A stretch of DNA of 64,000 bases, from contig JAKAUW010000080.1 in assembly GCA_021817455.1 (NCBI GenBank), positions 1-64,000 on the forward strand, written 5' to 3'. The translations under genes were made by a program, and so were the position numbers. The stretch is from Thermoplasmata archaeon (GTDB lineage Archaea > Thermoplasmatota > Thermoplasmata > Thermoplasmatales > Thermoplasmataceae). Each line of letters starts with the position of its first letter. The stretch's first letter is position 1. The notes beneath the pieces were generated by a model, which had not been told where the DNA came from, made no database searches, and saw only the letters and a program-made list of their open reading frames with translations. This document shows, piece after piece, positions 1 to 19,673 of this stretch.

Positions 1-1
1 C

Positions 2-424
2 CCTTCCAGGGAGGAAGAACTCAACATCCTCAAATCCATTACTCTCCCGAATGATGACGTTGACAACGATGTTGATGCAACTAAGATCCTGAGCCTTCGG
101 AAAGAAGTTTCAAAGGTTCATGCAAGTGAAGAGATAATGTCCTATATTGTTGATATTATTAGAAGAACCAGGGAACACGAGCTCATAATGGTCGGTGCAA
201 GCCCAAGGACCGCAGCCAAGTATCTTACAGCTGTCAGGGCCAATGCAATGCTCAATGGAAGGGACTATGTAATACCGGAAGATGTGAGGTTCATTTCCAG
301 GGAACTTTTGAACCACAGGCTAATACTCAGGCCCGAGGCACTGCTTGAAAACGGTGGAGATGGAGTTTCCACTGTCAACAGGGTAATCGACAGGCTTATA
401 TCACAGGTTGCGACACCTAAATGA
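2..424 (+). CDS. MoxR-family AAA+ ATPase, C-terminal part (5' truncated by window)
   Basis: The reading frame is open from base 2 and its start lies outside the window. Only the C-terminal helical lid of a MoxR-type AAA+ ATPase is visible, with the sensor-2 region GASPRTAAKYL and the typical IPEDVRFISRELLNHRL segment. MoxR ATPases are thought to act as chaperones that mature or insert metal centres in partner proteins, often with VWA/DUF58 proteins. The stop codon overlaps the start of the next gene (ATGA), a DUF58 protein, so the two are almost certainly co-translated. The Walker motifs are not in view. Confidence 0.88.
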   Translation, partial: PSREEELNILKSITLPNDDVDNDVDATKILSLRKEVSKVHASEEIMSYIVDIIRRTREHELIMVGASPRTAAKYLTAVRANAMLNGRDYVIPEDVRFISRELLNHRLILRPEALLENGGDGVSTVNRVIDRLISQVATPK

Positions 425-1734
425 TCAAGAAATCCGGATATGGGATACTGGCGGCAGTTTCTGCTTCAGTGCTGGAATCCATATTATTCGGATATGATTA
501 TTACATAATTTTCTCTTTGATTCTCTTCTTCATCCTTGTATCTGACATCATCATTTTCAACAGCGGGGCTGCCCGGGACCTCTTCAAGGTGGAAGTCGAA
601 AGGAAAATGGCGGACGACCACGGAAGGAAGTATCAGGGAAAGGAAGTGGAGGTATTCTTCAAGAATCCAACAAGAAGAGTCATAACTTTCCATTACTACG
701 ATACACTTTCAGATGTATTCCATGCAAGCGGGGATTTCGACGGGGACTTAGTTCTTGCCCCTGGCGAAGTCAAGAGGCTCACTTATGCAATCTCAGCCTA
801 TGCCATCGGGAAGTATCAGATTGGCCCGCTTATCCTTTACATACAGGATCCCATGAAACTGTGCATAACACGGGCAGTGGTTCCAAAGGTGGATGAAGTG
901 AAGATCGGCCCAGCTTATTCTGATATCCACACACAGAGAAGCGAGAGGCTAAGCAATTTCCTCTTCACAATGGGGATTCATTACTCAAGGAAGAGCGGCC
1001 AGGGTTACGATTTTTACGGTATAAGGCAGTACGTCGAATCTGATGATTTCCGTTATATCGCATGGAACAAGTACGGGATGATTGACGGGGAAGACCTCTA
1101 TATCAAGCAGATGGAAGAGGAGAGGCAGATTGATGTATATTTCTTCATAGATTACAGTATTGGCGCGAACCAGGGGTACGGGGACAGAAGGATGTATGAT
1201 TCCGTTGTCTCAAGTGTTCTGAATGCCTCATACTCAATCACAAAAAACAGAGATGGCGTGGGTTTCCAGGTTATTTCCAGCAACATTGACCATTTTATCC
1301 CTGCCCAGAAATCAGAAGAACCAATCAAGAAGCTTGAAAAACTGGTTGCTGAACTTCGCCCATCGGGGGAGTTTCACATTGAGCAGGTTTTTGAAATGGT
1401 AAAGAAGCGGATCAAGAAGAACGCGGTCGTATTCATCGTCACACCATTTTCATACCCAGAAAGTTTCGTAAAGCTCAATGCAAGAAATATTCACACCGGC
1501 AAGCCAACTTACATGTTTCTCCTTGACTCATATGACTTCATGGAGAAGCGTGAGGACCCTGTCTACAGGAAACTGATGATGAGCACCGGGATAAAGGAGC
1601 GCAGGTATCTAAAAACCGTCACCGGATTCTTCAATGGAATAGGGGTGAAGGCCGTGGTCTCAAGAGAAAAGGACCTCCTGGCCAGGATCCTTGCAGAATA
1701 CAGGTATGCAAGAATGCAGAACCTGGGGAGCTGA
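421..1734 (+). CDS. DUF58 family protein, MoxR partner
   Basis: 437 residues. Two hydrophobic N-terminal segments (about residues 5-45) are followed by a beta-rich region and then the DUF58 core, recognisable by GQGYDFYGIRQYVESDDFR and IAWNKYG (about residues 195-220), and by a VWA-like strand FFIDYSIGAN. DUF58 proteins are membrane-anchored VWA-like proteins encoded next to MoxR; their exact role is unsettled. The start overlaps the end of the MoxR gene by four bases and the next membrane protein follows within 6 bases, so this is a three-gene operon. The VWA strand has D-Y-S-I-G instead of the classical DxSxS metal site, so metal binding may be lost. Confidence 0.85.
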   Translation: MIKKSGYGILAAVSASVLESILFGYDYYIIFSLILFFILVSDIIIFNSGAARDLFKVEVERKMADDHGRKYQGKEVEVFFKNPTRRVITFHYYDTLSDVFHASGDFDGDLVLAPGEVKRLTYAISAYAIGKYQIGPLILYIQDPMKLCITRAVVPKVDEVKIGPAYSDIHTQRSERLSNFLFTMGIHYSRKSGQGYDFYGIRQYVESDDFRYIAWNKYGMIDGEDLYIKQMEEERQIDVYFFIDYSIGANQGYGDRRMYDSVVSSVLNASYSITKNRDGVGFQVISSNIDHFIPAQKSEEPIKKLEKLVAELRPSGEFHIEQVFEMVKKRIKKNAVVFIVTPFSYPESFVKLNARNIHTGKPTYMFLLDSYDFMEKREDPVYRKLMMSTGIKERRYLKTVTGFFNGIGVKAVVSREKDLLARILAEYRYARMQNLGS

Positions 1735-1740
1735 TGGAAA

Positions 1741-2619
1741 ATGGAAGACGACATGAAAATGATTCCCATCAACGTTGCAATAATGCTTCCATCCATAGTG
1801 CTCTCAATATACGTAATACCAAATATTGTTGGAAACGTGTATGTTATCCCATTCATATTCTTGAGCATTCTCCCCATAATCAAGAAAGTCCTTCCAGAAC
1901 CATTTTCAAGAGACCTTTACCCAACGGTAGTCATTCTAGTATTGCTCATAATCCTGCTTAATATCATGCTTGCGGGGAACCTCATTGCCTCAAACTGGTT
2001 CTTCAGGCTGTTCATAATCCCTCTGAATATTCAGACTGCCATTACCCTGACAATGGCCCTGAGTATAGCATCTGTTTTTGAGGGAATCTTCTCAAAAAGC
2101 TTAGCGAAATCCATCGGTTACCAGACATTTTCCCTTCTTCCGTTACTTGATCAGGTATTCGTTCTGTATTTGATGCAGCAGTATTCTTACACTTACCTTC
2201 AGGCCTATTACGAAGCTTATTCTCAGCAGATCATCTCTTTCATTGCACTTGTGGTCACAGGATCCACAAACATTTTTGGGCAGAAATTCCCACCTCCTCT
2301 TTCCGAATACAGTTTCCCAATAGATCCAGTGATGCTGTCTGCGCTGATTATTTCCCTGGTGGCCATTATGGCGTACTTCGTGATAGTCAAGGAGAGCAAG
2401 CTCAAGGGTGAAGTACTTTCCGGCATTGCGTCCGCACTGGTTCTAGGGGGTGTGTTGGGAGTGATTGTTTTCTACCTGGTCCAGATAACTGCAGGTTCAG
2501 GCTTTGACCTTTTCGTTGCTGCCCTGGCGCTTGTCGTGACGCTGGTTTATGCCGCTAGATCTTCCCCAGAAAGAAAAGCTAGGAAAAAAGGAGCTCCTAA
2601 GCTTAAAAACAACTGGTAA
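1741..2619 (+). CDS. Polytopic membrane protein of the MoxR-DUF58 operon
   Basis: 292 residues with about eight hydrophobic segments spread over the whole length and a basic C-terminus (SSPERKARKKGAPKL). No family is recognised. It lies 6 bases after the DUF58 gene on the same strand, so it probably belongs to the same membrane-associated MoxR system. A TTTATTAA element just after its stop is the likely promoter of the next gene, so the operon seems to end here. The ATG at 1741 is chosen because an earlier ATG at 1734 opens a different frame; an internal ATG at 1753 is also possible. Confidence 0.7.
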   Translation: MEDDMKMIPINVAIMLPSIVLSIYVIPNIVGNVYVIPFIFLSILPIIKKVLPEPFSRDLYPTVVILVLLIILLNIMLAGNLIASNWFFRLFIIPLNIQTAITLTMALSIASVFEGIFSKSLAKSIGYQTFSLLPLLDQVFVLYLMQQYSYTYLQAYYEAYSQQIISFIALVVTGSTNIFGQKFPPPLSEYSFPIDPVMLSALIISLVAIMAYFVIVKESKLKGEVLSGIASALVLGGVLGVIVFYLVQITAGSGFDLFVAALALVVTLVYAARSSPERKARKKGAPKLKNNW

Positions 2620-2646
2620 TTTTATTAATTTGCCTCTCAATACCTT

Positions 2647-3915
2647 ATGGTGAATACCCTTGAAATAAGGAATGCACTCATAGTAACCCAGAATCAGGGA
2701 AGAGAAGTACTGAGGGGAAATATTTACGTTGAAGGGAGCAACATTTCATACATAGGCAATGGGACCCATGATTCAAATGAAGTCATTGACGGTACACACA
2801 AACTTGTGATGCCCGGCCTCATAAATACTCACTGCCATGTGGCAATGTCTCACCTCAGGGGAAAACTGGACGACATGCCTCTGAGCAAATTCCTGGAACT
2901 CACCTTCAAACTCGATTCAGAAAGGACGAACAGTGGGATCTACAATTCGGCCCTTCTGGGAATTTATGAAATGATAGATTCCGGCGTGACCTCCTTCGTG
3001 GACCTTTATTATTCAGAAGACTTGATTGCAAAGGCTGCAGAAGACGCAGGAATGAGGGCATTTCTTTCCTGGGTTACACTAGATCAGGACAAAACAACTC
3101 AAAAGGGGGACCCAAGCGCAAACGCAGAACGTTTCATAGGTCAGTTCCAAAATGACGATTTGGTGACTCCTTCGGTAGGCGTTCAAGGAGTATATGTAGC
3201 TTCGGACGAGGTCTACCTCAAGGCCAGGGAAATTGCCGATAGAAAGGATACAATTATTCACGGCCACCTGTGTGAAACAAGGGAGGAAGTGTACAACTTC
3301 ATGGAACTGCATAATGGGGAAAGGCCCACTGAGCACCTCGACAGGATAGGATTCCTGAACCGCAGATTCCTTGCTGCCCATGGGGTGTGGAACACCATGA
3401 GGGAAGTCAGGCTATTGGGCAAGAATCATTGCAATGTCTCATGGAATCCAGTAAGCAATGCGAAACTCGGAGTAGGCGGAATAGCACCGGTCACAGAATA
3501 CCGGGAAAATGGGGTGACAGTCACAGTGGGTTCTGACAGTTCTGGAAGCAATAACAACCAGGAACTTTTCCAGACCATGAAGTTTGGATCCATATGGGTG
3601 AAGAATGAACGATGGGATCCTGCACTCACAACTGCACAGGAAATACTTGACATGGCAACAGTAAATGCCTCCAGGGCGTTAAACACCAATGACATAGGTT
3701 CCATTGAGGTTGGTAAGAAAGCTGATTTCGCCATTCTGGATATGAGGACGCCAAGAATGATGCTTACCAATGAAGAAACTGCAGTATCCAACATCATATA
3801 TTCCGCAGATTCATCCTGCGTTTCAGATGTTATAATCAACGGAAAAATCCTGAAGAGAGACCGAAAGCTGGTTGGTTATGAACCTGAAAAGCTTCATGAC
3901 CAAGTCTTCATCTAA
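2647..3915 (+). CDS. Amidohydrolase of the SAH/MTA/5'-deoxyadenosine deaminase group
   Basis: 422 residues, the full length of the ATZ/TRZ-like amidohydrolases that deaminate S-adenosylhomocysteine, methylthioadenosine or 5'-deoxyadenosine. The metal-binding HxH is in PGLINTHCHVAMSHLRG (H62, H64). Further ligands are visible in HGHLCET (about residue 208), AAHGVW (about 245) and the active-site aspartate segment VGSDSSGSNNN (about 300). The C-terminus carries the usual GSIEVGKKADFAILD motif of the composite beta-sandwich. A TTTATTAA box at 2621-2628 fits a leaderless transcript from the ATG. Substrate choice among these nucleosides, or a chlorohydrolase-like activity, cannot be decided from sequence. 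Confidence 0.82.
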   Translation: MVNTLEIRNALIVTQNQGREVLRGNIYVEGSNISYIGNGTHDSNEVIDGTHKLVMPGLINTHCHVAMSHLRGKLDDMPLSKFLELTFKLDSERTNSGIYNSALLGIYEMIDSGVTSFVDLYYSEDLIAKAAEDAGMRAFLSWVTLDQDKTTQKGDPSANAERFIGQFQNDDLVTPSVGVQGVYVASDEVYLKAREIADRKDTIIHGHLCETREEVYNFMELHNGERPTEHLDRIGFLNRRFLAAHGVWNTMREVRLLGKNHCNVSWNPVSNAKLGVGGIAPVTEYRENGVTVTVGSDSSGSNNNQELFQTMKFGSIWVKNERWDPALTTAQEILDMATVNASRALNTNDIGSIEVGKKADFAILDMRTPRMMLTNEETAVSNIIYSADSSCVSDVIINGKILKRDRKLVGYEPEKLHDQVFI

Positions 3916-4008
3916 TGAATTATGAAGAACGTTGGGATTCGTAAATTCAGATTGGCAGTGTATGCACAAATCACAAAAGTTACCTTCCCATGAAAGAGTG
4001 TTATCAAT

Positions 4009-4056
4009 GAGGATTTCCCATAACCTCTCCTTTTCGACAGAATGAATTTGGAAATC
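4009..4056 (-). repeat. 48-bp repeat block A, possible small-RNA gene start
   Basis: Read on the minus strand, this block matches 6191-6238 (plus strand) at 43 of 48 positions by eye, including the core TCGAAAAGGAGAGGTT. On the minus strand a TATA-like TTTAAAT (4078-4084) sits 25 nt upstream of its first base, and copy B has the same arrangement. The TATA element overlaps an inverted repeat, ATGGCATTT (4073-4081) and AAATGCCAT (4092-4100). No ORF covers the block. Similarity fades after about 60 nt. It may be the 5' end of a small RNA or an IS-related end. Confidence 0.5.
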
Positions 4057-4145
4057 ACGTTTTTCAATTGAAATGGCATTTAAAGTGCTCGAAATGCCAT
4101 CAGTTCATGCCATTTTCCTTCTGTTTTCTTATGAATTTCTAGTGC

Positions 4146-5042
4146 TCACGCTGTCCGATCAAGAAATCTTGTCCTCATGAGGTTATAGCACATGGCGGTG
4201 AAATATGTCTTGACCCTTGCCCTCTGCACGGTTGTTACCATGGTTCCACCACTGACTTTATTCTGGATAACCTCATGTTCCTGCGTATGCTCTTCGTGGG
4301 GAGCTTGTGATTCCTCACAGCGCGATCCATGGTTCCATTGATGCCCTTGCATTCGGAGCAGAAATATCCTTTGCCCCTGTAACAGACCACTCCAGGAAGG
4401 GAGAGATCAATCCTTGAGTCATGAACATTCGCCGGTGTTACTGAAAGCTTCTCCATGATCTTGATCTCGTTGGTGAGGGTGTGTTCCTTGTATCCGAAAT
4501 GGTGCTGCTTATTCTTTGTGGCTGAGGTACCGTCCTTAGATCTGCGGGTCCTTGCATCCTCCCCCCCTTGTTTTGCAGTATCCACCGCGATCGGATTCGA
4601 TGAATGAAGCATCCCGAATGATCCCTTTCTTCACCCTGCTGCGGCTGGCCCTGATCTGATCCATGATGTCATTGAAGACAAGGCGATTCTTGCCTATTTT
4701 AGAAAGCCTTTCACGGAAGTACCGGATCGTGTTCCTGTCCGGCAATTTCTCATGGAATCTCAGGAACTTCATGAATGATATCCTGTCCCTGATCTCCCTC
4801 TTCACCTGCGGATCAGAGAGATTTTACCACTGCTCCAAGAGTAATATCCTCACCATGAGTACAGGGTCATATTTTGGCCTTCCTCCCTTCTCTGTATCAT
4901 TGTCATAGAGATCTGCAAGAATATTCCTGTTCCTCTCAAAATCTATGCGATCCCCTATGCCGGAAAGGGGATCGCCAAGGTTCTCAATTCCTTGTAGAGT
5001 TCTGATAATCCGGTCTGAAAGAGGTTCATGCCATTTGATCAT
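4146..5042 (-). pseudogene. Decayed IS5-like transposase
   Basis: The remnant runs 5042 to 4146 in three reading-frame pieces. The first frame begins MIKWHEPLSDRIIRTLQG and contains GGRPKYDPVLMVRILLLEQW, then a TAA at 4826-4824 where a sense codon is expected. The same frame continues through DRNTIRYFRERLSKIG. A frameshift at a run of seven G (4561-4567 on the plus strand, as C) moves to the frame with DEARTRRSKDG-like residues (EDARTRRSKDGT) and FGYKEHT. A second shift near 4250 leads to TTVQRARVKTYFTAMCYNL, the usual IS5 C-terminus. With one nonsense codon and two frameshifts it cannot be active. A 13-bp sequence, GTTCATGCCATTT, is found at 4103-4115 and 5024-5036. Clear terminal inverted repeats were not found. 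Confidence 0.85.
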
Positions 5043-5051
5043 GGGGTCATG

Positions 5052-5084
5052 AAAAAAGGTTTCGGTAGGGTTTTTTAGGAAACC
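5052..5084 (-). terminator. Hairpin-plus-U-run terminator of the HTH regulator
   Basis: On the minus strand GGTTTC (5084-5079) can pair with GAAACC (5063-5058), and a run of six T follows (5057-5052). The hairpin overlaps the stop codon of the regulator at 5075 and separates it from the transposase remnant. Confidence 0.5.
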
Positions 5085-5773
5085 TCAAAATACTCTTTAT
5101 TGAACATACTTAAATAAGGCTTAAGTGAGAAAAGTATCTTGGTTTTGGCCTTGTTAAGATGTTCCTCCATTGTTGATTCGGACAGGTTGTTTCTGTTTGC
5201 CAGATCTTTCAGCGTAGTCTTTTTGGGGATTGAATAATATCCTAAATACAGGGCCTCAGTGAAATATTCCATCTGCTTTTTTGTTACGCCTTTGAAGAGA
5301 GATGAGATAGATATGGTGTATGTATCCCTCAGAGAATCAGGGGTGAACGAATTCTTTTTTACGATTTCAGTTTCTCCTATTTTAGCAAAATCCTCATAGA
5401 GAGATTTCAGGTACTGATCTTTAAGAGTTATAACATTTATGCTCTCTCTTCCATTTTTATATTCAACTGGGGCCTGCCAGAGGCAGTTATTGGATTCTGC
5501 AATCCTGATTGTGGAATTATCTATGCTGCACTTGCAGGTAAACATTATTGTAAGCCTTGATCCATTCCTGGACTGGTAAACTGCTTTGGAATTCAGCATG
5601 TTCACAATTTCCGGAATAAAGGTCTGAACCCTGTCAATATCGCCATTCTTGCCATAAAATTCAAGGTAGTCAAGGCTCGAGTTGCACCACCTGTAAAAAG
5701 TCACTTCTGGGAATTTTTCTGAAACAGAACAGAAAGGGTAGTTATTCCTCAGTGAAAACGCAACTTCATCCAT
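5075..5773 (-). CDS. Bacterio-opsin-activator-type (HTH_10) transcription regulator
   Basis: 232 residues from the ATG at 5773. The N-terminus (DEVAFSLRNNYPFCSVSEKF, then RWCNSSLDYLEF) and middle resemble the ligand-sensing part of archaeal Bat/HTH_10 regulators. The C-terminal 60 residues hold the DNA-binding domain, with TKKQMEYFTEALYLGYYSIP and TLKDLANRNNLSESTMEEHL. The frame extends up to an ATG at 5845, but a TATA element (5793-5805) centred about 25 nt before 5773 indicates a leaderless start at 5773. The gene is divergent from a small protein gene, and both seem to share that TATA element, so it is a candidate regulator of that neighbour. The ligand is unknown. Confidence 0.8.
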   Translation of the reverse strand: MDEVAFSLRNNYPFCSVSEKFPEVTFYRWCNSSLDYLEFYGKNGDIDRVQTFIPEIVNMLNSKAVYQSRNGSRLTIMFTCKCSIDNSTIRIAESNNCLWQAPVEYKNGRESINVITLKDQYLKSLYEDFAKIGETEIVKKNSFTPDSLRDTYTISISSLFKGVTKKQMEYFTEALYLGYYSIPKKTTLKDLANRNNLSESTMEEHLNKAKTKILFSLKPYLSMFNKEYFEVS

Positions 5774-5792
5774 GATAGCCAATCCAGAACGG

Positions 5793-5805
5793 TTATAAAT
5801 ATATA
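5793..5805. promoter_or_regulatory. Shared bidirectional TATA element
   Basis: The sequence TTATAAATATATA reads as a TATA box on both strands. On the minus strand it is about 25 nt from the ATG of the HTH regulator (5773). On the plus strand it is about 40 nt from the ATG at 5839, which is preceded by GGTGAT at 5829-5834. No other AT-rich box lies between the two genes. Confidence 0.6.
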
Positions 5806-5838
5806 CCCGACCGTTCAATGTGTATATGGTGATGAAAC

Positions 5839-6099
5839 ATGACAAACATAATTGTTGAACACAGATGGAGAGAACATAATAAGGATGAGGCGTTTAAGGC
5901 TGTAGGCGGCATAGTTGACATGGCAAAAAACAGCAAACTGCCAGCAGGTTTCACACTTAAATCCATCAATGTTATTGGCGAGGAGAACCGTGCAGTATGC
6001 AACTGGGAAGCACCGAGTGCTAACGAAATGAAAGAACTACTCAGGAAAGTTAACCCGCCAACAAAACACGAAGTATTCGAAGCACAGAAAATATTCTGA
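5839..6099 (+). CDS. Small alpha/beta protein, DUF4242-like
   Basis: 86 residues, no signal peptide or membrane segment. The C-terminal part (CNWEAPSANEMKELLRKV, then PTKHEVFEAQKI) resembles the strand-helix-strand end of small ferredoxin-like-fold proteins of the DUF4242 type, some of which bind nickel. The family assignment rests on this pattern only. The gene is divergent from the HTH_10 regulator and shares its TATA element, suggesting it is the regulator's target. A GGTGAT ribosome binding site lies close to the ATG, and a hairpin terminator follows at 6122. The N-terminal His in VEHRWREHN could be a metal ligand, but this is a guess. Confidence 0.55.
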   Translation: MTNIIVEHRWREHNKDEAFKAVGGIVDMAKNSKLPAGFTLKSINVIGEENRAVCNWEAPSANEMKELLRKVNPPTKHEVFEAQKIF

Positions 6100-6121
6100 A
6101 CTGTTTTCCGTTGAAAGGATT

Positions 6122-6155
6122 CGGGGAACATTTTCCCGTTTTCTGCAATTTTTTT
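6122..6155 (+). terminator. Hairpin-plus-T-run terminator
   Basis: CGGGGAA (6122-6128) pairs with TTTCCCG (6132-6138) around a CAT loop, with one G-T pair. A run of seven T follows at 6149-6155. It ends the small gene at 5839-6099. Confidence 0.55.
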
Positions 6156-6190
6156 AAAAAACTTAAAAGCCTTCCTTATTCAATGTTCGG

Positions 6191-6238
6191 GATTTTCAAT
6201 TTCATTCTATCGAAAAGGAGAGGTTTTGGGAAATTCTC
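6191..6238 (+). repeat. 48-bp repeat block B, possible small-RNA gene start
   Basis: This is the plus-strand partner of block A at 4009-4056, with 43 of 48 positions identical by eye. A TATA-like ACTTAAAAGC (6161-6170) lies about 25 nt before its first base, as in copy A, so both blocks would begin at the predicted transcription start. No ORF of note follows before aIF5A. The gene-free stretch 6100-6473 otherwise holds the terminator at 6122 and the aIF5A promoter near 6448; nothing else is recognised in 6240-6440. Confidence 0.5.
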
Positions 6239-6482
6239 CAATGTGAAACTTGAGTAACATCCATTTTCCTTTAATTAACAATTCAGTGCAATGACTGGCT
6301 TTTTTCATTGCCAATGTGGTATTCTTGTATCGGAATGAAATCTCTTCCTCCTTGAGGTTTCTCAGAATAAGGCCCTTTCAGAGTGTTTTTCCAATGTGAT
6401 CAATCAGTTGGTTTTCTTTATCCACTATTACTTTCGTCAATAGAAGATATATAAATACTGATACAATTAGGAAATGAAGCAT

Positions 6483-6872
6483 ATGAGTTGGCAGGAAGCC
6501 GAAGTTAGGGAATTGAAAGTTGGAAGATACATGCTTATTGACGATGCACCCTGTAAAATCGCAGAAATCACCATGTCCAAGCCAGGAAAACATGGTGAAG
6601 CCAAAGCTAGAATCGTTGCAATCGGAGTTTTCGACGGTCAGAAGAGGAGTGTTGTATTCCCTGTAAAGCACAAGGTAAAGGTACCAATTATAGAAAAGAA
6701 GAATGCGCAGGTACTTTCAAAAGCTAACAACGAAATCCAGCTTATGGATTCTGAAACCTTTGAGACCTTTTTAGTGCAGGTCACCCCGGAAGAGGTTGAC
6801 CGGATACAGCCCGGAACGGAGGTATCCTATTGGGAGACAATGGGCGTAAGAAAGATCATGCTTCAGAATTAG
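6483..6872 (+). CDS. Translation factor aIF5A (hypusine-containing)
   Basis: 129 residues from the ATG at 6483 (an in-frame ATG at 6474 would add three). The protein has the SH3-like N-terminal domain with the hypusination loop [13 protein letters not shown] (target lysine K36) and the OB-fold C-terminal domain. aIF5A relieves ribosome stalling during peptide-bond formation and is modified from spermidine by deoxyhypusine synthase. A TATATAAAT box (6448-6456) places the transcript start between the two candidate ATG codons. [11 protein letters not shown] is the usual archaeal beginning, which favours 6483. The next gene, agmatinase, makes the precursor of the polyamine used for this modification. 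Confidence 0.95.
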
Positions 6873-6877
6873 GCGCA

Positions 6878-7729
6878 ATGTTTTCCCACAGGAAAATAGC
6901 CGATGCACAGGTATCCTATGAGGATGCCAAGTATGTTATTTTCGGGGTTCCGTTCGACCATACTTCAAGCTTCAGGAGAGGCTCTCGTTTAGCCCCTGAT
7001 TCCATAAGACTTGCCTATGATAACCTGGAATCATTCGATTTCCAGTACAAAGTGAATTTCCCTGACCTGCCAATTTGTGATATGGGAGACCTTTATGTGG
7101 AAGAGGATGCCGAAGAGGTCGTCAATGATATAGAAAGATCCGTCAGGCACATTGCGGACGATGGAAAGATTCCGATTATGCTCGGTGGGGAACACTCCCT
7201 TACAACTGGCCTCATCAGGAATTTCCCGAACTGTTCAATGATCATAATTGATGCCCACAGTGACTTCAGATACGAATACATGGGAAGTAAGTACAACCAT
7301 GCCTGCATCACCAGACGGGCATTGGAAGTTCTTGGCGAAGAAAGAATTTTCTCTGTAGGGACAAGATCTGTGTCCAGAGAGGAATACGAAGACCCAGACT
7401 TTTCTAAGATAAGATATTTCAGCGCTAATGAAGTCAGAGAGAAGGGGATTCAGAAAGTGATTGAAGAAATTGAGAGAAAGGCCAAGGAAAAAATCTACTT
7501 CTCAATCGACATGGATGGCATCGACCCTTCAGAAGCCCCTGGCGTTGGCACTCCGGAACCTTATGGCATATCATCTGCAGAAGTCCGGTCACTGATTAAC
7601 CATTTTGCAAAGAGGATTATCGGGTTCGACATTGTGGAAATGACACCTGTATATGACAATGGCAACACATCCATGCTTGCGGCTAAATTCATTCAGGACT
7701 TCATAGGCAGTAAAGAAAGCAAAGCGTAG
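6878..7729 (+). CDS. speB: Agmatinase (ureohydrolase family)
   Basis: 283 residues from the ATG at 6878; the frame is open to an ATG at 6830, but that would overlap aIF5A by 43 bases. The two-manganese site of ureohydrolases is complete: GGEHS, DAHSDFR, and SIDMDGIDPSEAPG (each about one third apart). The EPYGIS segment is also typical of agmatinase. It hydrolyses agmatine to putrescine and urea, feeding spermidine synthesis. The gene lies 5 bases after aIF5A and is probably co-transcribed, which links polyamine supply with hypusine formation. Arginase or formiminoglutamase activity is less likely given the motif pattern and archaeal context. Confidence 0.88.
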   Translation: MFSHRKIADAQVSYEDAKYVIFGVPFDHTSSFRRGSRLAPDSIRLAYDNLESFDFQYKVNFPDLPICDMGDLYVEEDAEEVVNDIERSVRHIADDGKIPIMLGGEHSLTTGLIRNFPNCSMIIIDAHSDFRYEYMGSKYNHACITRRALEVLGEERIFSVGTRSVSREEYEDPDFSKIRYFSANEVREKGIQKVIEEIERKAKEKIYFSIDMDGIDPSEAPGVGTPEPYGISSAEVRSLINHFAKRIIGFDIVEMTPVYDNGNTSMLAAKFIQDFIGSKESKA

Positions 7730-7742
7730 TCATCGGTTTTTT

Positions 7743-8537
7743 CTATTTCTTCTTCATGAGAAATAGCTGCCAGAGATAGCTTTTCGTGATTTTTCCGCCA
7801 TAATTTTTGTCAATCATGTCTGTTAGGCATTCCAGCAAGCCTTCCCGCGAAGGGTCCTCCATCAATATTATATCTGAATAGGTGGATAGGAGTTGCCTAT
7901 ATTCTGAAGCAGTGTATTCAACATCAGTTCCATAGTTTTTGTTAATTGTCTTTTCAAATCCGTCCCTGAACTCGGAAGAGTACCTGAATCCATCTTTCAC
8001 CACTTCATCGCGGCCAGGGAGCCTGAATTCTGCAGTTGTGTTCTTATCCCATTTGAGATAACATTCCTGAGATGAAACAGGAAAAGTATCCCTCCCATTG
8101 TCTATATGCCTTGTTTCAATTATTGCTGCTGTTCCACCTTTACTGACAATATTCCTGATCTTTTGGCCTCTTTTCAATGGGTCGAGCCAGTGGTATGAAG
8201 TAGCGGCAACAACTAGGTCATATGAGTCAGGTTCTAATTCTTCTGTGTCAAAATCTCCTTCAAGAATAGTAACATTAGTGAACTTGGGGACATTGAGTCT
8301 GGCTTTCTGCGCAAGTTTACTGCCCAGTTCTATCCCAGTAACGGTGAAGCCCTTGAGTGCCAAAGCCCGGGTCAGGAAGCCTGTGCCTGTACCGATCTCA
8401 AGTATCCTGGAACTGACTTTAATGCCAGAATTCTCGACGAGATCGTCTATAAGAGAGACAGGGTATTCTGGCCTAGCAATATCGTAAAGGTCAGCAACAC
8501 TGTCAAATATGGACTTCTTCCCCGCAGCATCCTTCAC
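7743..8537 (-). CDS. Class I SAM-dependent methyltransferase
   Basis: 264 residues. The SAM-binding glycine-rich motif ILEIGTGTGFLT is at about residues 40-51, followed by the acidic loop TGIELG and the motif-II/III region ILEGDFDTEEL and DLVVAATSYHWLD. This is the UbiE/BioC-like methyltransferase fold. HWLD is common in trans-aconitate and small-molecule methyltransferases, but no substrate can be assigned. It stands alone, convergent to agmatinase. Confidence 0.75.
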   Translation of the reverse strand: MKDAAGKKSIFDSVADLYDIARPEYPVSLIDDLVENSGIKVSSRILEIGTGTGFLTRALALKGFTVTGIELGSKLAQKARLNVPKFTNVTILEGDFDTEELEPDSYDLVVAATSYHWLDPLKRGQKIRNIVSKGGTAAIIETRHIDNGRDTFPVSSQECYLKWDKNTTAEFRLPGRDEVVKDGFRYSSEFRDGFEKTINKNYGTDVEYTASEYRQLLSTYSDIILMEDPSREGLLECLTDMIDKNYGGKITKSYLWQLFLMKKK

Positions 8538-8630
8538 TGATGCCTCACCATGTTGTATATTGGTATAATTAACGGTTCATACATGTTTGATATATAAAAT
8601 GCATTTGTTGAGATAAAAAGTAAAATTAGG

Positions 8631-9161
8631 TTAAAGTCCTAGCTTTCCAGCTATTTCTTTACCTTTGGTAATTTCAATTCTGCAAGGGGTTGGTAATTTG
8701 ATCGATGCTTTGTGCAGTGCGTCTCTGAGCATCACAGCTCTGTCAGGGGTTGTCCTGCCAACCATTATGATGTCACCTGAAGATATTCTGGCTGCTGTGC
8801 CAACAGGCCTTCCAAATGCCGCCCTCATACCTGATGAAATTCTGTCTGCTCCTGCCCCGGTTGCCATCTTATGTTCCCTAAGGACATGATGTGGGTATGG
8901 CCTAATCTGGAGGAAATAATTGTCTGCAGTTGAGCCTTCCATCATCTTCCTGTTCACAGAAATCCTAGCGGCTTCAAGAGCGATATGCCTGATCTGGCAA
9001 GCTTCCTTGGCAACCAGTCTTAGTTCGATCTCGAAATCTCTCTTCTGATTCCCCTGTATGAAAGTCGTAATCTTTGGGTAGGGTACTCCTCCCATGAACT
9101 CCTTCCTAGTATAAGCTGGACCTGAAATTTTAGTGTACATTCTTGCTGGTTTAGTTACCAT
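8631..9161 (-). CDS. rpl10e: Large ribosomal subunit protein L10e (uL16)
   Basis: 176 residues, the normal length for archaeal L10e. Typical segments are KPARMYTKISGPAYTRKEF at the N-terminus, RPYPHHVLREHKMATGAGADR in part near residues 107-120, and SSGMRAAFGRPVGTAARI. The protein binds 23S rRNA near the A-site finger and helps position tRNA. A TATA element near 9187-9197 on the minus strand fits a leaderless start at 9161. It is a single gene, outside a ribosomal protein operon. Confidence 0.95.
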   Translation of the reverse strand: MVTKPARMYTKISGPAYTRKEFMGGVPYPKITTFIQGNQKRDFEIELRLVAKEACQIRHIALEAARISVNRKMMEGSTADNYFLQIRPYPHHVLREHKMATGAGADRISSGMRAAFGRPVGTAARISSGDIIMVGRTTPDRAVMLRDALHKASIKLPTPCRIEITKGKEIAGKLGL

Positions 9162-9292
9162 GGAGATTCTATCCGAAAGCCGGTCAGAATATAAAAACTA
9201 AACGATTTGCTTAATAAACGGTGTCATCATTGTCGTAATTTTCCCTTTGTGACCCTAATTCCAAGATGCGGTAAAACTGCACTTGGTATAAA

Positions 9293-9318
9293 CATTATAT
9301 TTATGGTAACTATTTACC
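9293..9318 (+). promoter_or_regulatory. TATA box with palindromic operator candidate
   Basis: The TATA element CATTATATTTATGG (9291-9304 region) is followed directly by GGTAA (9305-9309), CTAT and TTACC (9314-9318), a perfect 5-bp inverted repeat with a 4-bp spacer. It ends three bases before the ATG at 9322, so it covers the predicted transcription start. A dimeric regulator bound here would block transcription; the encoded AbrB-like protein is the obvious candidate. Confidence 0.5.
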
Positions 9319-9321
9319 ACT

Positions 9322-9483
9322 ATGGAGAAAAAGAAATTAATTGATGTTACCCACATATCCTCAAGGGGATCATCTTACAGGATCACACTTCCTAAGAGGG
9401 TAATCAGCAGACTAAACCTCAAAGATGACGACATCATAGCATTTTACGAAGACGAGGGTGTCAAGATCGATAAAATCCAGTAG
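9322..9483 (+). CDS. AbrB/MazE-like (SpoVT swapped-hairpin) DNA-binding protein
   Basis: 53 residues: a short basic N-terminus, then SSYRITLPKRVISRLNLKDD and IIAFYEDEGVKI. The pattern of strand, (I/V)TLPK(R/E), LxLKxGDxI-like turn and strand is that of the AbrB swapped-hairpin fold, which dimerises to bind DNA. Such proteins act as free-standing transition regulators or as antitoxins. No toxin-like ORF is adjacent: the next gene is an MFS transporter 30 bases downstream, which may be co-transcribed and regulated by it. The TATA spacing makes the mRNA leaderless. The gene is below the usual length cut-off and easily missed. Confidence 0.75.
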   Translation: MEKKKLIDVTHISSRGSSYRITLPKRVISRLNLKDDDIIAFYEDEGVKIDKIQ

Positions 9484-9513
9484 GTAAGTACCAAGTGAGA
9501 TTTATCTCAACCG

Positions 9514-10605
9514 TTGCATTACTCCGTTGTGCCTTCAGATTCATCAAAAAATGCCTCTTTTTCACTATTCATAAGCACACTCTCCTTTGGGTCTGGATGG
9601 TTCAGCCTTAGTTTTGCTATTCCATTGCTTGCGCAAAACATTGGATACTCTTACGTAGTAATCGGGATATTAGGGTTTCTGGCATCATTGCCTTTCCCGG
9701 TTGTGGCCTTTATCTACCTGAAATCAGGCTACAGGATGCTGAGATATGGCACGATTATTCCGCTTGTTTCACTTACTGCCTTATCCCTTCTGTTTTATTT
9801 CTATTACAGGAGCTACTTCATTCCACTTACAATAATTGCCAGTTTAATTCAGGCACCTTGGTGGATTGCAACGGAGATCTCACTCGGGACATTCAGCGGA
9901 ACAAGAAATGCTGAAAAGTATTCTGCCGGATGGGGCATTCCAAACGCACTGGCACCTATACTTATGGGCGTCATTCTCCAGATAAGCGGTTATGAAATAG
10001 TGTTCCTTGTTTCTATGGTGGCTTTCATCGTTGGTGCGTTGACGTCTCCAAGGCCAGGCATACTTTCAATGAAAAATGCGGAAAAACCTGTTAAGAGGAT
10101 CTATCTTCTATCGCTTTTCTTTGCAGGGATATTTTCCGGGTTCATCTACTTCGTAATGGAACCTGTCCTAAGGGCACATGGCTTCAATTATCTGATAATA
10201 GGAGGTGTGATCTCGCTTTATGGGGTGGTTGCTGCAATCGGGTACATAATACTAAATTATTCTAGAGATCTTAATATATCCACTTACAGTGCGCTTTCTG
10301 CACTATTAATAGTTCCAACCGCATTAATTGGGGTTTTCCTGAACATTTACACCATTGTCATTGTGGTTATTCTTGCAGGGCTAGGAGTCTCTATAAGCAT
10401 GTCCAAGGTATTGTCTTATATCGCAGGTTCATCTGATCTAAAGAGGGGTGTATTCTATTATGAGACGTTCTTCGGGACTGGATTCATGGCAGGTTCGCTG
10501 CTACAGGACGTCCTTTACCAGTATATTGGAAAAGTAACAATTTTGATAATGTTCATCGCTCCCCTGGCCTACGCAATGGTAATGCTATCACGGAAATGGC
10601 AATAA
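9514..10605 (+). CDS. MFS-type transporter
   Basis: 363 residues with about eleven to twelve hydrophobic segments. Loop motifs such as LKSGYRMLRYG after the second helix fit the major facilitator superfamily. It is shorter than the usual 400 residues. The start is a TTG at 9514; a GTG at 9529 gives nearly the same protein. It follows the AbrB-like gene by 30 bases with no promoter of its own visible. Substrate unknown; drug, sugar or metabolite export and import are all possible. Confidence 0.72.
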   Translation: MHYSVVPSDSSKNASFSLFISTLSFGSGWFSLSFAIPLLAQNIGYSYVVIGILGFLASLPFPVVAFIYLKSGYRMLRYGTIIPLVSLTALSLLFYFYYRSYFIPLTIIASLIQAPWWIATEISLGTFSGTRNAEKYSAGWGIPNALAPILMGVILQISGYEIVFLVSMVAFIVGALTSPRPGILSMKNAEKPVKRIYLLSLFFAGIFSGFIYFVMEPVLRAHGFNYLIIGGVISLYGVVAAIGYIILNYSRDLNISTYSALSALLIVPTALIGVFLNIYTIVIVVILAGLGVSISMSKVLSYIAGSSDLKRGVFYYETFFGTGFMAGSLLQDVLYQYIGKVTILIMFIAPLAYAMVMLSRKWQ

Positions 10606-11706
10606 TCAGAATTTAGACGGATTTCGAACATCAATCACAATATTCTTTTCCCCAACGGCATCCTTGTCTAGCTCATGGCCACACTTGGTGCACTTCAGTG
10701 ACAAGTTCGGGAGAAGTATGTGGTACGTTGCCTGGCCGCATTCAGGGCATCTGCTTTTGACAAATGGCTCGATTTCAGATATCACCTTCCGTTCCACACT
10801 ATGTTCCACATCTACTCCTATTGCAGAAGACGTGCTTACTTCCGGCGTCTCATTAGGGACCTTTATCCCGAGCTGTACCAGTGAATAGACGCCAAGAAAA
10901 CCGAGGAAAAAGAGGAAAAGTGGCAATATTACGCTAAGAGCTGCGTTGCCGGAAATAAGGAATGCAGTTAAATTGGTCATGGCAACGGCAAAATTTGTTA
11001 GGTATGCTTTGAGGAAGCCTAAATTCAGGAATATTTCGTTCAACACCAGAAGGGAAAAGAACGCGGTAATGAAAGTCAGAATGGTTCCTGAAACCAGAAA
11101 AGATGCTGCAAGGGATATTATGACGGAAACAAAGTGTCTCTCCTTGCTGCTCATCTTGTAGAATTTTATGCCTTCAGACAGTGGAGTACCGTGCATTTTG
11201 CTGATGATCACCGCTGCAATTGTAATAGGGAGCAGTTCGTAAAGTGCAGCCTCCAGAAGGGTCTGGTAAGAGAAGATGAAGTTCTGAATTGGCCCTGATT
11301 CATTAAACGGAAATTCATTGGTGTAACTAGGCACAAAATAAGTAATGAGTTCTGAAAGGACCAGCTGGACCAGAATATATATCATAAGATAGCCATAGAA
11401 TTTCCTGTTTTTCTCCCTTGAAAATCCCATGGACAGGTTTTCGTTTCTGTAGAACAGTGAATAAATGGCAAAAATCGTAAAGAAAATGGAAAGGATTACG
11501 ATTAGATAAACGGTGAAAGCGTTGAAATTAAGGCCTGAAAAGCCTGAAACCTTGTCTCCCAGTGCTGTTATCTTGTCCGGGCTGGAAAAAACTGGTATGA
11601 TAAAGTATAGAAATGTTATGAATGAGACGAAAATCAGCACCAGGCCAGAATAGGTCAGGATCAATTCACCGGGTGTCAGTTTTTCATCCTTCTCATGCAT
11701 TGGCAA
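10606..11706 (-). CDS. Membrane protein with C-terminal zinc ribbon, degenerate CPBP-like
   Basis: 366 residues with about eight membrane segments over residues 15-270, then a soluble tail with a zinc ribbon: CPECGQATYHILL and CTKCGHELD (about residues 325-350). The segment EAALYELLPITI resembles the EExxxR region of CPBP (Abi) intramembrane proteases, but the second glutamate and the arginine are missing, so protease activity is doubtful. The gene ends right against the MFS gene (convergent) and begins 6 bases after the AlaX-like gene, with which it may form an operon. Confidence 0.55.
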   Translation of the reverse strand: MPMHEKDEKLTPGELILTYSGLVLIFVSFITFLYFIIPVFSSPDKITALGDKVSGFSGLNFNAFTVYLIVILSIFFTIFAIYSLFYRNENLSMGFSREKNRKFYGYLMIYILVQLVLSELITYFVPSYTNEFPFNESGPIQNFIFSYQTLLEAALYELLPITIAAVIISKMHGTPLSEGIKFYKMSSKERHFVSVIISLAASFLVSGTILTFITAFFSLLVLNEIFLNLGFLKAYLTNFAVAMTNLTAFLISGNAALSVILPLFLFFLGFLGVYSLVQLGIKVPNETPEVSTSSAIGVDVEHSVERKVISEIEPFVKSRCPECGQATYHILLPNLSLKCTKCGHELDKDAVGEKNIVIDVRNPSKF

Positions 11707-11712
11707 TTCTCC

Positions 11713-12426
11713 TTACTTCAGTGTTATGTTTATTCTTCTGCTTATTTTTCCCTTGACGAGGTTAGTCTTGAACTCAATCTCCCCAATCTCGCTTGTATTC
11801 TTTACATTAGTGCCAAATTCCATCTGGTCGGGAATGCCATTTAAGTGGAGTATCCTTATCTTATCGTAATCTGGTACTCTTGCTTTGCATAATTTCATCA
11901 TTTCTTCTTTTTTAAGGAAGTCTTCCCTGCTCAAATAGGAAAAACTTGTGTCTGCATTAGACTTAGCCACTTTGTTGGCTTCAGCAAAGAGTTCATCCAC
12001 CTGTTCCTTAGTAATTTCTTCAAGCTCAAGATCCACCCATGCGTTATCGTCATAGGTCTGGTTAATCCTCATTGTCGCCCCATACATTTTGTATGCAAGG
12101 CCACTGAGTATCTTCAATGCGGTTCTGAACCTCATGTGAAGGTACCTCACATCCCAGTCAAGAACCTGTTTTACCTCTTTTCCGTCAATGTTGTCTGGGA
12201 AAGTGTCATGGGACATAAGGTGGATACTGTCTCCATCTGACCAGGTATCCACTATAATGTACTCAGTCCCATCGATGTATACATGGCCCCTATCGTTTGG
12301 CTGCCCCTCGCTGGTAGGATAAAAGACCGTCTGATCAACTATCAAATCTGTGAATTCATGCCACAAAGCCTTTCCTGTGGCTTCTTTTTGATACTGATCT
12401 TCGAGATATAGCAATTTGGTGTCCAT
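11713..12426 (-). CDS. AlaX-like alanyl-tRNA editing domain protein lacking zinc ligands
   Basis: 237 residues. The family signature is clear: VDQTVFYPTSEGQPNDRG at residues 30-47 (canonical QTxFYPxGGGQPxDxG) and KNTSEIG near residue 217. The zinc ligands are not there. Where active AlaX has HTALH, this protein has RTALK (R101, K105), and where they have CGGTH it has FGTN. Functional AlaX proteins remove serine or glycine from mischarged tRNA-Ala with this zinc site. The protein is therefore probably inactive in the known way, or uses another mechanism. It is upstream of the zinc-ribbon membrane protein and divergent from folC. Confidence 0.75.
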   Translation of the reverse strand: MDTKLLYLEDQYQKEATGKALWHEFTDLIVDQTVFYPTSEGQPNDRGHVYIDGTEYIIVDTWSDGDSIHLMSHDTFPDNIDGKEVKQVLDWDVRYLHMRFRTALKILSGLAYKMYGATMRINQTYDDNAWVDLELEEITKEQVDELFAEANKVAKSNADTSFSYLSREDFLKKEEMMKLCKARVPDYDKIRILHLNGIPDQMEFGTNVKNTSEIGEIEFKTNLVKGKISRRINITLK

Positions 12427-12556
12427 CGATTCTTGAATACTCTGGAATATTTATTTAATTGCCTTAACCGCAATGCTCACCAACTTCATGGGAACCTGTC
12501 CAAAAATACAAATGAGGCCCCTTCTTTGTGGAATAACTTTTTGATTAGGCAAAGCA

Positions 12557-13852
12557 TTGGCTCTCGTGTTTTCTCCAGATCTGAAGTTTCTATACGGGCT
12601 TTACAGGGAAGGTATAAAGCTGGATCTTTCGGCAACAATGGAATTTGCCCAGTCGATGGGGAACCCACAGAACAATTTTCGCTCTTTCCACATAGCAGGT
12701 ACCAACGGAAAAGGTTCCACGGCTGCCTACATTTACAATATTCTCATGGAAAAAGGTAACACCGGCCTTTACACCTCCCCCCATCTTATTAAGTTTAATG
12801 AGAGAATAATTGCAGGTAGGGAACAAATTACGGATGAAGAGATAATAAGGTTTATTCAGGAAAACAAGCCTCTAATCGAGGAACTTTCCACCAAAAATAG
12901 AAACCCCACTTTCTTCGAGGCTTCCACAATTATGGCATTCCAGCATTTTGCAGACAAGAATGTCAAATACGCAAGCATAGAAGTCGGGCTCGGCGGGAGA
13001 CTAGATTCCACAAATATCATTGAACCTGAGGTGAGCGTCATAACTCAGGTGGGATACGAGCATGCAGACAAGCTCGGGTGCTCACTGACATCCATTGCCG
13101 GTGAAAAAGCAGGGATCGTGAAGCCTGGCAGGCCGGTTGTACTGGGGGACACAAAGAGGGAAGTCATCGAAACCGTAAGGAAGTTTGCGGAATCTAGGAA
13201 CTCTTCGTTTATACATTCTCCATCAGTCTGCAGGATCACTGAACTGGAGCAGGATATACGTGGAAGCAGGTTTAATTTAAGCACACCTACAGGTGAATAC
13301 AGGATAGACACCTCAATGGTGGGTCGTTTTCAGCCGGGAAACATATGTACCGCCATACTTGCGGTTGAAAGTTCAAAAGTAGACACATTCAGCGAGAAGG
13401 ACATTGAAAGGGGGATCTCAAGAACTAGATGGCCCGGAAGGATGGATATTATCAGGAAGGATCCTGTAGTCATGGTCGACGGTGCACACAACCCCCCTGC
13501 CGCCAACGCACTTAGAGTTTCAATGGAAGAGCTCAAGGTAAAGTCACCAACATTACTGCTTGGAATGCTTTCAGACAAGGACGCTTTCTCTTTCCTCAGA
13601 ATAATGCGGATGATTTCAGGAAAGGCAATATTCACTACACCTGATGAGCCAGTCAGGGCAATTCCTGCCGGTACACTGGCCAAAATGGCTGAAGGTATCT
13701 TCAAGGATGCAGTGGCAATAGACGACCCATTGGAGGCGTATGAAAGGGCAATTGCAACATCTGATTTTGTACTCGTTGCAGGCTCACTTTACCTAGTCGG
13801 AGCCATAATGGAACATGAAAGGGCACCCGTCATGCCTTATGCTGCAGATTAA
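12557..13852 (+). CDS. folC: Folylpolyglutamate synthase / dihydrofolate synthase
   Basis: 431 residues from the TTG at 12557 (a GTG at 12566 is an alternative). The Mur-ligase-like ATP site is HIAGTNGKGS (residues 46-54), followed by the FolC signature SPHLIKFNERI and the central GLGGRLDSTN. C-terminal MVDGAHNPPAA is also diagnostic. The enzyme adds glutamate to folate-type cofactors. An AT-rich TATA element near 12450 would start transcription near 12473, where a 23-codon ORF in the same frame begins and ends with TGA at 12544, thirteen bases before the TTG. Confidence 0.88.
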   Translation: MALVFSPDLKFLYGLYREGIKLDLSATMEFAQSMGNPQNNFRSFHIAGTNGKGSTAAYIYNILMEKGNTGLYTSPHLIKFNERIIAGREQITDEEIIRFIQENKPLIEELSTKNRNPTFFEASTIMAFQHFADKNVKYASIEVGLGGRLDSTNIIEPEVSVITQVGYEHADKLGCSLTSIAGEKAGIVKPGRPVVLGDTKREVIETVRKFAESRNSSFIHSPSVCRITELEQDIRGSRFNLSTPTGEYRIDTSMVGRFQPGNICTAILAVESSKVDTFSEKDIERGISRTRWPGRMDIIRKDPVVMVDGAHNPPAANALRVSMEELKVKSPTLLLGMLSDKDAFSFLRIMRMISGKAIFTTPDEPVRAIPAGTLAKMAEGIFKDAVAIDDPLEAYERAIATSDFVLVAGSLYLVGAIMEHERAPVMPYAAD

Positions 13853-13892
13853 GCTTTTGATCAAGTATTGGTTTATGTTTCTGGTCAAAAAA

Positions 13893-13933
13893 GCTTTTAG
13901 TACTCCCAACCCCTATGCGTAATTTACCGGTAA
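13893..13933 (+). promoter_or_regulatory. orc1/cdc6 promoter with palindrome
   Basis: A TATA-like GCTTTTAGTAC (13893-13903) is followed by the perfect palindrome TTACCGGTAA (13924-13933) at the predicted transcription start, four bases before the ATG at 13938. No origin recognition box with its G-rich string was identified in the 85-bp intergenic space. Confidence 0.4.
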
Positions 13934-13937
13934 TCGC

Positions 13938-15248
13938 ATGAATTTATTTTCAAAATATTCAGGTTCTTCTGATCTGCTGGCAGGTGATCTCGGGCGCTTA
14001 AGCGGTTCATATGTTCCTGAATCTTTCCCCCACAGGGAAACCGAAATTGATCATATCGTACGGATACTGAGCAGCATCATGCGCGATTCCAGGCCGTCCA
14101 ATATTCTCATCTATGGCAAGACCGGGACCGGAAAGACTTCCACTACACAATATGTTACAAAAATGCTGTCTGAAGCAGCAGGGGAGAAAGTTAGAGTCTG
14201 CTTTGTAAACTGCCAGGTTCATGATTCACCTTATTCCATACTCACAACTCTTGTAAATGAACTGTCTGAAGGTAAAGATGATCTCATCCCACCCATGGGA
14301 TGGCCGCTGGACAGAATCTACGGCGAGCTTATTGCTAGGATAAACGGAAAAGGCGGATATTATGTGCTTGTCCTTGACGAAATTGACAGGCTCCTCCAAA
14401 AGAATGGCGGAGATTCACTCTATGTACTGCTCAAGGTAATCGATGATTCCACTTCATCCAGGACTTCCCTCATTGGCATTACAAATGACGCAAACATCCT
14501 CGACGGCCTTGAGCCGAGGATAAGAAGCAGAATGAACCAGGAAAGTATTCTTTTCTCCCCCTACAACGCCTCTGACCTCAGAGATATAATTTCCTTCCGG
14601 CTTAAGGGCGTGGTAAAAGCCAATGTGGTTGAGGAATCAGCCATAAACCTTTGTGCTGCACTGGGTGCACAGGAACACGGGGATGCACGAAAAGCACTGG
14701 ACCTCATGAGAATATCCGTAGAGATAGCTATGAGAGAGGGCAGGAAGACCATCACCGACAAGGAAATTTATGAGGCAAGGGACAGGTTTGAAATGGATGT
14801 GGTGAAGGAAGCTATTAAGACACTTCCGCTGCAGAGCAAAATTGTCCTTCTGAGCGCCGTTGTCACACAGGAACTGAGCAGCAAGCTCATGATAACTGGC
14901 GAGATTTATGAGAACTACAGGAACATATGCAATGAGCTGGGTTTCATGTCCCTTACCAGCCGGAGGGTTAGCGACATCCTTTCTGAACTGGAAGACTTCG
15001 GCCTTCTTTCAGCTACAACGAGAAGCATGGGGAGATACGGAAGAACAAGGTTCATAAAGGTCATGGGACAGCTGGACCTATTCAAAAAACACCTGCTTGA
15101 AGACGATAACCTTTCCATGTTCCAGGGGTCTAGAATCGTGAGGCAGTCCCGCTTTGAAAATGTTTTTGGGAATAAGGAGGAGAGAAATCTCACAGATCGT
15201 GAACTGGAGAATAAGCTTTCAAACTTTGCAGATGCTGACTTGCAGTAA
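13938..15248 (+). CDS. cdc6: Orc1/Cdc6 replication initiator
   Basis: 436 residues, normal for archaeal Orc1/Cdc6. AAA+ domain: Walker A YGKTGTGKT (residues 59-67), Walker B VLVLDEID (143-150), sensor 1 in LIGITND, and the arginine-finger region LEPRIRSRM. The C-terminal third is the winged helix (LTSRRVSDILSELEDFGLL). The protein binds origins and loads the MCM helicase. In many archaea an origin lies next to the gene, but the upstream region here is short. Confidence 0.93.
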   Translation: MNLFSKYSGSSDLLAGDLGRLSGSYVPESFPHRETEIDHIVRILSSIMRDSRPSNILIYGKTGTGKTSTTQYVTKMLSEAAGEKVRVCFVNCQVHDSPYSILTTLVNELSEGKDDLIPPMGWPLDRIYGELIARINGKGGYYVLVLDEIDRLLQKNGGDSLYVLLKVIDDSTSSRTSLIGITNDANILDGLEPRIRSRMNQESILFSPYNASDLRDIISFRLKGVVKANVVEESAINLCAALGAQEHGDARKALDLMRISVEIAMREGRKTITDKEIYEARDRFEMDVVKEAIKTLPLQSKIVLLSAVVTQELSSKLMITGEIYENYRNICNELGFMSLTSRRVSDILSELEDFGLLSATTRSMGRYGRTRFIKVMGQLDLFKKHLLEDDNLSMFQGSRIVRQSRFENVFGNKEERNLTDRELENKLSNFADADLQ

Positions 15249-15250
15249 TA

Positions 15251-15892
15251 TCAAACGAAGTTTTCTCTGAAGATGAAGCACATATCGTCCGCAACTTTCA
15301 CCAGTGTGAGACCTTGTTTTTCGGCGAAATCATCAGGTGCTGTGGTCCAGTCATAGTTATCCACAACAATGAGGAATTTTTTCCTCAGGTTTTTCAGTGC
15401 GGTTTCAAGTTCCCAATTTACATGCTCATAGGTGTGCTCCGAATCGTGGAAGAAGATATCAAATGGGCCGAAATAGCTTAATTTGCTTTCCAGGGTGTTC
15501 TTTGTGTCTCCAAGAACCAGTGACCAACGATCCCTTAATTTATCAGGAACGAGGAACCCAACTGGCATTTCCTCATCCTCACCGTACTTCTGTCCCAGGT
15601 CAAAACTGAAGAGCCTTCCCCTGAATTCTGAAGAAGCTTCTAAAATTGCAGTCGAAGTGCTTCCTGGACCCACACCCGTTTCTGCAATTAGTGGTGCCCT
15701 CATCATCTTGACACCTGTATAAAGCCAGCAAAGTTCCGATCCTGAAACCTGCCAGTAATTCTTTCCGCCTATTCTGGATTCCACATATTCAACAATCCTT
15801 GAAGCCTCTTTGAACGAATCTAAGACTTCAGTTTCAGTGCATTCCAGGAACTGGAGAATCTTCTCTTTTCCTGTAAAGTCAGGGTTGATCAT
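15251..15892 (-). CDS. Class I methyltransferase-like protein (O-methyltransferase fold)
   Basis: 213 residues. LIAETGVGPGSTSTAILEA (about residues 68-86) is a SAM-binding motif of the Methyltransf_24 type, LFSFDLG is the acidic-loop strand, and FDIFFHDSEHTYEHV with IVVDNYDW are the typical metal-dependent O-methyltransferase segments. Substrate unknown. It is convergent with cdc6, three bases apart. Confidence 0.7.
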   Translation of the reverse strand: MINPDFTGKEKILQFLECTETEVLDSFKEASRIVEYVESRIGGKNYWQVSGSELCWLYTGVKMMRAPLIAETGVGPGSTSTAILEASSEFRGRLFSFDLGQKYGEDEEMPVGFLVPDKLRDRWSLVLGDTKNTLESKLSYFGPFDIFFHDSEHTYEHVNWELETALKNLRKKFLIVVDNYDWTTAPDDFAEKQGLTLVKVADDMCFIFRENFV

Positions 15893-15969
15893 TCTTTTCC
15901 TCTCTCATAAGAAATGCAATTTTCCGCATTAAATTTAATGGCAGAAAGCACATCCCGGTGTAGATCGCT

Positions 15970-16566: not shown

Positions 16567-16619
16567 CGCCTTAATTGTATTAGAATTTAAAAAATAAAAT
16601 TGGGAATAAAAAGAGAAAT

Positions 16620-19434
<2,815 letters not shown>

Positions 19435-19600
19435 AGGGTTATCTGGTCAGGATGCTCATCCAATTAAAAAGTTTTATTAGATTACGGTTTTTAATCAATA
19501 TTATTACAGCCAAAGTTTATAAATATGACTGTTAGAATATTCTCAAATTTATTATTTATTTAATTGAATTTTAATAAATTCTTGGAATTTGCAAAAGCTA

Positions 19601-19624
19601 CCATCATTCCTCTAAATATGATGG
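19601..19624. repeat. Hairpin in AT-rich intergenic region
   Basis: CCATCAT (19601-19607) and ATGATGG (19618-19624) form a perfect 7-bp inverted repeat with a 10-base loop. The 239-bp region 19435-19673 also has a strong TATA-like GTTTATAAATATG (about 19513-19525) that serves no known gene. A second TATA-like segment near 19641-19652 fits the gene starting at 19674. Confidence 0.35.
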
Positions 19625-19673
19625 GCTGGTACGATAACCATTAATATTTTTAACGGTAGAATACTCATGGATT

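Follow-up and report, generated by a model that had tools for sequence, protein, structure and literature searches.

The DNA analysed here (the window, 64,000 nucleotides of a Thermoplasmata archaeon genome) contains two 48-bp blocks in opposite orientation, A (4009–4056, minus strand) and B (6191–6238, plus strand), and raises the question of whether such a pair marks small-RNA genes or the debris of a mobile element. The observation itself was reproduced: an alignment of A with B gave 43 of 48 identical positions, TATA-like motifs (TTTAAAT for A, TTAAAAG for B) were found by counting on the sequence to be centred 25 nt ahead of the first base of each block, and A and B flank an insertion sequence (IS) remnant and a regulator pair, as claimed. 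BLAST matched the two blocks at 88% over 51 bp with an E value of 2.3e-12 in the 1.76-Mb genome, indicating that their similarity is not a matter of chance. The original prediction had offered two origins for them, either a family of small non-coding RNAs or conserved leaders that a mobile unit had left behind; the ‘mobile unit’ survives, since the blocks correspond to the terminal DNA of an IS5-family element, and the RNAs and leaders are not supported. In all likelihood A and B are the two ends, both facing outwards, of a dead 2.2-kb jumping element by which a foreign pair of regulator genes entered the chromosome, and not small-RNA genes. The features concerned are as follows.

4005–4008, no strand: CAAT, left copy of a 4-bp target-site duplication, identical to 6239–6242 and flush with the GAG terminus.
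4009–4056, minus: block A, the IS terminus 3' of the transposase gene and left outer end of the whole element (G005/G091 alignment).
4009–5086, minus: remnant of an IS5-family insertion sequence with a broken transposase (ORF matches, near-full-length copies in relatives).
5070–5086, plus: IS terminus 5' of the transposase gene, inward-facing in the whole element (16/17 to the end consensus; flank AAAA).
5075–5845, minus: passenger gene for an HTH_10 regulator with an HVO_A0563_N domain (Pfam) and a C-terminus unlike that of its homologues.
5839–6099, plus: passenger gene for an 86-aa protein (protein comparison with G009 and G005).
6191–6238, plus: block B, a copy of the same IS end lacking the IS interior, and right outer end of the whole element (BLAST, alignment, terminus scan).
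6239–6242, no strand: CAAT, right copy of the target-site duplication, identical to 4005–4008.

Three of the four ORF pieces of the IS remnant matched DUF772 or DDE_Tnp_1 in Pfam (DUF772 at E 2.3e-7; DDE_Tnp_1 at E 9e-4, below the cut-off), as befits a transposase of the IS5 type, and the intact transposase of a relative (L046) scored 201 against a cut-off of 140 for transpos_IS5_4 (NCBIfam NF033581). Some match to the remnant was present in 44 of 77 genomes, and near-full-length copies in the same archaeal family are 69–74% identical to it. The reading frame of the transposase in the window is broken, so that the element cannot move by itself and is a fossil.

When window positions 3950–5150 were used as the query, the IS copies of G005 and G091 aligned from base 4009 inwards, and block A is therefore identified, on sequence comparison, as the outer end of the IS. 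Inspection by eye of 22 IS end regions of relatives placed the end of the IS at ...GGAAATCCTC, ...GGAAAACCTC or a closely similar sequence, with differing flanks beyond it (the sole exception being L056). Terminal inverted repeats are present at 4009 (17/17) and 5086 (16/17), as scored against an end consensus whose list includes the window ends. The remnant thus resembles IS5-family insertion sequences in its transposase family (NF033581 transpos_IS5_4; DUF772, DDE_Tnp_1), its length class (about 1.0–1.1 kb), its GAG...CTC inverted ends and the 4-bp duplications made by the copies of relatives, but differs in its broken transposase and in having no duplication of its own at 4009/5086, where the flanks read CAAT and AAAA, respectively. 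The latter difference is explained if the ends that were used are 4009 and 6238.

The alignments with relatives contradict the proposal that the homology begins where transcription should begin, because the similarity of A to those IS copies extends inwards past the TATA-like motif. That stretch of A belongs to the interior of the IS, and is not conserved in G005 and G091, whose IS copies are the closest of those retaining this end; both have ACTGAATG in its place. At B, and at a third copy of the end in the same genome (C, G000:C16:62640–62687, 83% identical by BLAST), the homology ends where GATTTCY and GGAAATY form a short inverted repeat. A more distant copy (G036:C4:31805–31855) is 73% identical to B and 86% identical to the IS end of G005. 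A TATA-like motif at the 25-nt distance was looked for in the sequence of C and is absent, and the G036 copy carries TTTAAAAG at about the same distance as the motifs of A and B.

If the blocks were small-RNA genes, or conserved leaders, with promoters 25 nt upstream, this would account for the TATA-like motifs found at that spacing in A and B and, at about that spacing, in the G036 copy. Such motifs, from a list that was chosen afterwards, lie at that distance from 3–5% of random local intergenic positions; they are absent in C, G005 and G091, and A is contiguous with IS DNA. The folds of A, B and C were no better than those of shuffled sequences (z −0.72, 0.06 and −0.11), and the block matched no Rfam family, either at gathering scores or at E 1, in line with the earlier remark that no known RNA family was recognised. 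The changes in the terminal stem are all one-sided G-U changes, with no double change among them, which is the pattern expected of an imperfect inverted repeat. A search of the window for tRNA and tmRNA genes returned none. With neither promoter nor structure conserved beyond chance, we regard this explanation as highly improbable.

Of the weak matches that a search for the block in 61 genomes returned, most were taken as chance and only a handful were followed; among these, the matches in G008, G013 and G031 are IS ends adjoining IS DNA. A match in G005:C7 was set aside as chance from its sequence. Exact-pattern scans for the block gave no matches in genome contigs and none in viral contigs, and a plasmid search by blastn gave no match.

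The right end of the element differs from the left in its surroundings. Only 48 bp of the IS are present at B, with no IS interior detected at 5087–6190, and the 44 bp before B have no detectable similarity to the IS, whereas the corresponding 44 bp of A do. A scan of window positions 1–20000 for termini matching at least 14 of 17 positions returned three only (4009, 5086 and 6238), and the sole pair with equal 4-bp flanks was 4009/6238. One end consensus in that scan was shifted by one base, which produced paired entries one base apart. We examined 14 IS copies of relatives and counted 13, one end being uncallable in the other. Five of the 13 have an exact 4-bp duplication at their best-scoring termini (AATT, AAAA, CACA, TATG and GTTT), with a chance of 4-bp identity of 0.006 per IS copy, and eight do not; a TTAT match at L047 rests on the shifted consensus entry and was left out of the five.

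The 2,230-bp segment between the two CAAT copies is absent between the same neighbour genes (an amidohydrolase gene and an eIF5A-like gene) in three of five congeneric genomes (G001, G002 and G003). In G003, whose flanking genes are 86–90% identical to those of the window, the points matching window positions 3914 and 6411 are 266 bp apart, as compared to 262 bp for the window once the element and a single CAAT are taken out. The middle of that interval is too diverged to place the joint by alignment (129 of 500 shuffles align as well); a joint at CAAT ranks 31 of 100 joints of the same length, and the best free joint (3993/6230) lies 13–15 bp off, so that the joint rests on the length and on the CAAT repeat. 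In G001 and G002 the two neighbour genes are adjacent, with 80 and 106 bp between matches, and in G005 neither gene found a match. In G004 the amidohydrolase and eIF5A-like genes are separated by 6.8 kb that hold other genes, for which reason the interval may be an insertion hot spot. By eye, the G004 interval (L112, G004:C43:29500–40000) holds a kinase-like, a decarboxylase-like, two transporter-like and one transposase-like ORF.

The two genes carried between the ends have a G+C content of 38.6 and 42.1%, against 44.5% for the window. The passenger segment 5107–6099 is 82% identical at the DNA level, over 993 ungapped bp, to a gene pair in G009, a member of another genus. The 86-aa protein is 90% identical to its counterpart in G009, as compared to 58% for the same-genus G005 and 56% for a second copy in this genome. 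The last three residues of the regulator (EVS) and its stop codon are formed by the IS terminus, which replaces the C-terminus of the homologues. No IS match was found beside the G009 pair, which adjoins two methionine sulfoxide reductase-like genes (named from ORF translations), an order repeated in L162; the 86-aa gene thus lies next to such genes in two donor-type loci. The 86-aa protein itself is widespread, with matches at E 0.001 in 19 of 37 genomes, and its only Pfam resemblance, to SCO4226-like proteins, is weak and sub-threshold (E 0.095).

We therefore consider it probable that window positions 4009–6238 represent one 2,230-bp mobile element, a composite-like transposon with a single IS, now dead. 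Its left part would be an IS5-family IS with its 3'-side end (A) facing outward, and its right end a separate copy of the same end (B). In the likeliest course of events, the regulator gene of a donor received an IS5-family element at its 3' end, while another copy of the IS end lay beyond the 86-aa gene; the outermost pair of ends would then have been cut by the transposase of the element itself or by one acting in trans, and the IS, the regulator gene and the 86-aa gene would have been inserted jointly between the amidohydrolase and eIF5A-like genes, duplicating CAAT. We infer the movement of the whole segment in one event, and likewise the kind of donor; B would be the remainder of a second IS copy. 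Sequence comparisons favouring one element are the continuation of A into IS DNA in relatives, the 4-bp duplications made by this group of IS, the CAAT copies flush with the outer ends, the congeners without the segment, and the resemblance of the passengers to genes of another genus. Against it, B has no detectable IS interior, so that a second IS copy is putative, and a CAATGT just inside B means that B could have arrived alone; the diverged G003 interval and the eight IS copies of relatives with no exact 4-bp duplication also count against it.

The composite (compound) transposon, as described in PMC10969869, consists of two IS copies flanking accessory genes. The element resembles that description in its outward IS ends, in the passengers between them (the HTH_10 regulator and 86-aa genes) and in one target duplication round the whole (CAAT at 4005–4008 and 6239–6242), but has a single IS, the other side being represented by a 48-bp end copy. 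With only 48 bp and no IS interior detected at B, it works like a composite transposon without being a classical member.

The sequence around B bears on a different history, in which separate events produced the same arrangement: an IS inserted at A and lost its own duplication, the regulator pair came by another route, and B is either a 49-bp mini-element in its own right or a fragment of some further IS copy. B is bracketed by CAATGT (6181–6186 and 6239–6244), a direct repeat of 6 bp that misses the predicted inner end by one base, and the G036 copy is bracketed by AGAAA, again near its inner end. Furthermore, the three end copies that lack the IS interior (B, C and the G036 copy) share one inner limit, at the same inner inverted repeat, through which the copies joined to IS DNA continue (A, G005, G091 and, for ~207 bp, G020:C13). 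Neither direct repeat directly abuts the predicted inner end, however, and C has none. On this history it would also have to be coincidence that CAAT stands at both outermost ends and that the empty site has a matching length. We therefore judge separate events to be unlikely.

A partner end with a matching flank was found neither for C within L038 (9 kb) nor for the G036 copy within L118 (10 kb), and G005 offered no empty site for C, its locus there being non-syntenic as judged by eye. C has on one side two short ORFs, perhaps the pieces of a single broken gene, and on the other a gene that looks regulator-like and by eye resembles the HTH_10 kind; the stretches concerned are L038:4100–4593 and 4968–5600.

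Should it be more than chance that three independent breaks fall at one point, the 49-bp piece may be mobile by itself. The last 49 bp of the IS contain a second left-end-like sequence, GATTTCC, at the inner limit, as in the left end of relatives (GAGGATTTCCAAAA). PMC10969869 describes a MITE as a miniature element with inverted ends that is moved in trans, and B, C and the G036 copy resemble that description in being short and having an inverted repeat at their limits; they differ from it in lacking a flush duplication (by eye, a flush 4-bp repeat in none of the three) and in that only two such copies, B and C, are present in this genome. There is a small chance that the piece acts as a miniature element which settles as a ready-made end and, as at B, turns any nearby IS copy into a gene-carrying transposon.

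Under the preferred reading of 4009–6238 as one composite-like element, the small-RNA lead is replaced by a concrete case in which regulator genes seemingly were moved by an IS5-family element between genera of Thermoplasmata archaea. If everything did move in one event, a single IS and a 48-bp copy of its end sufficed to capture chromosomal genes.
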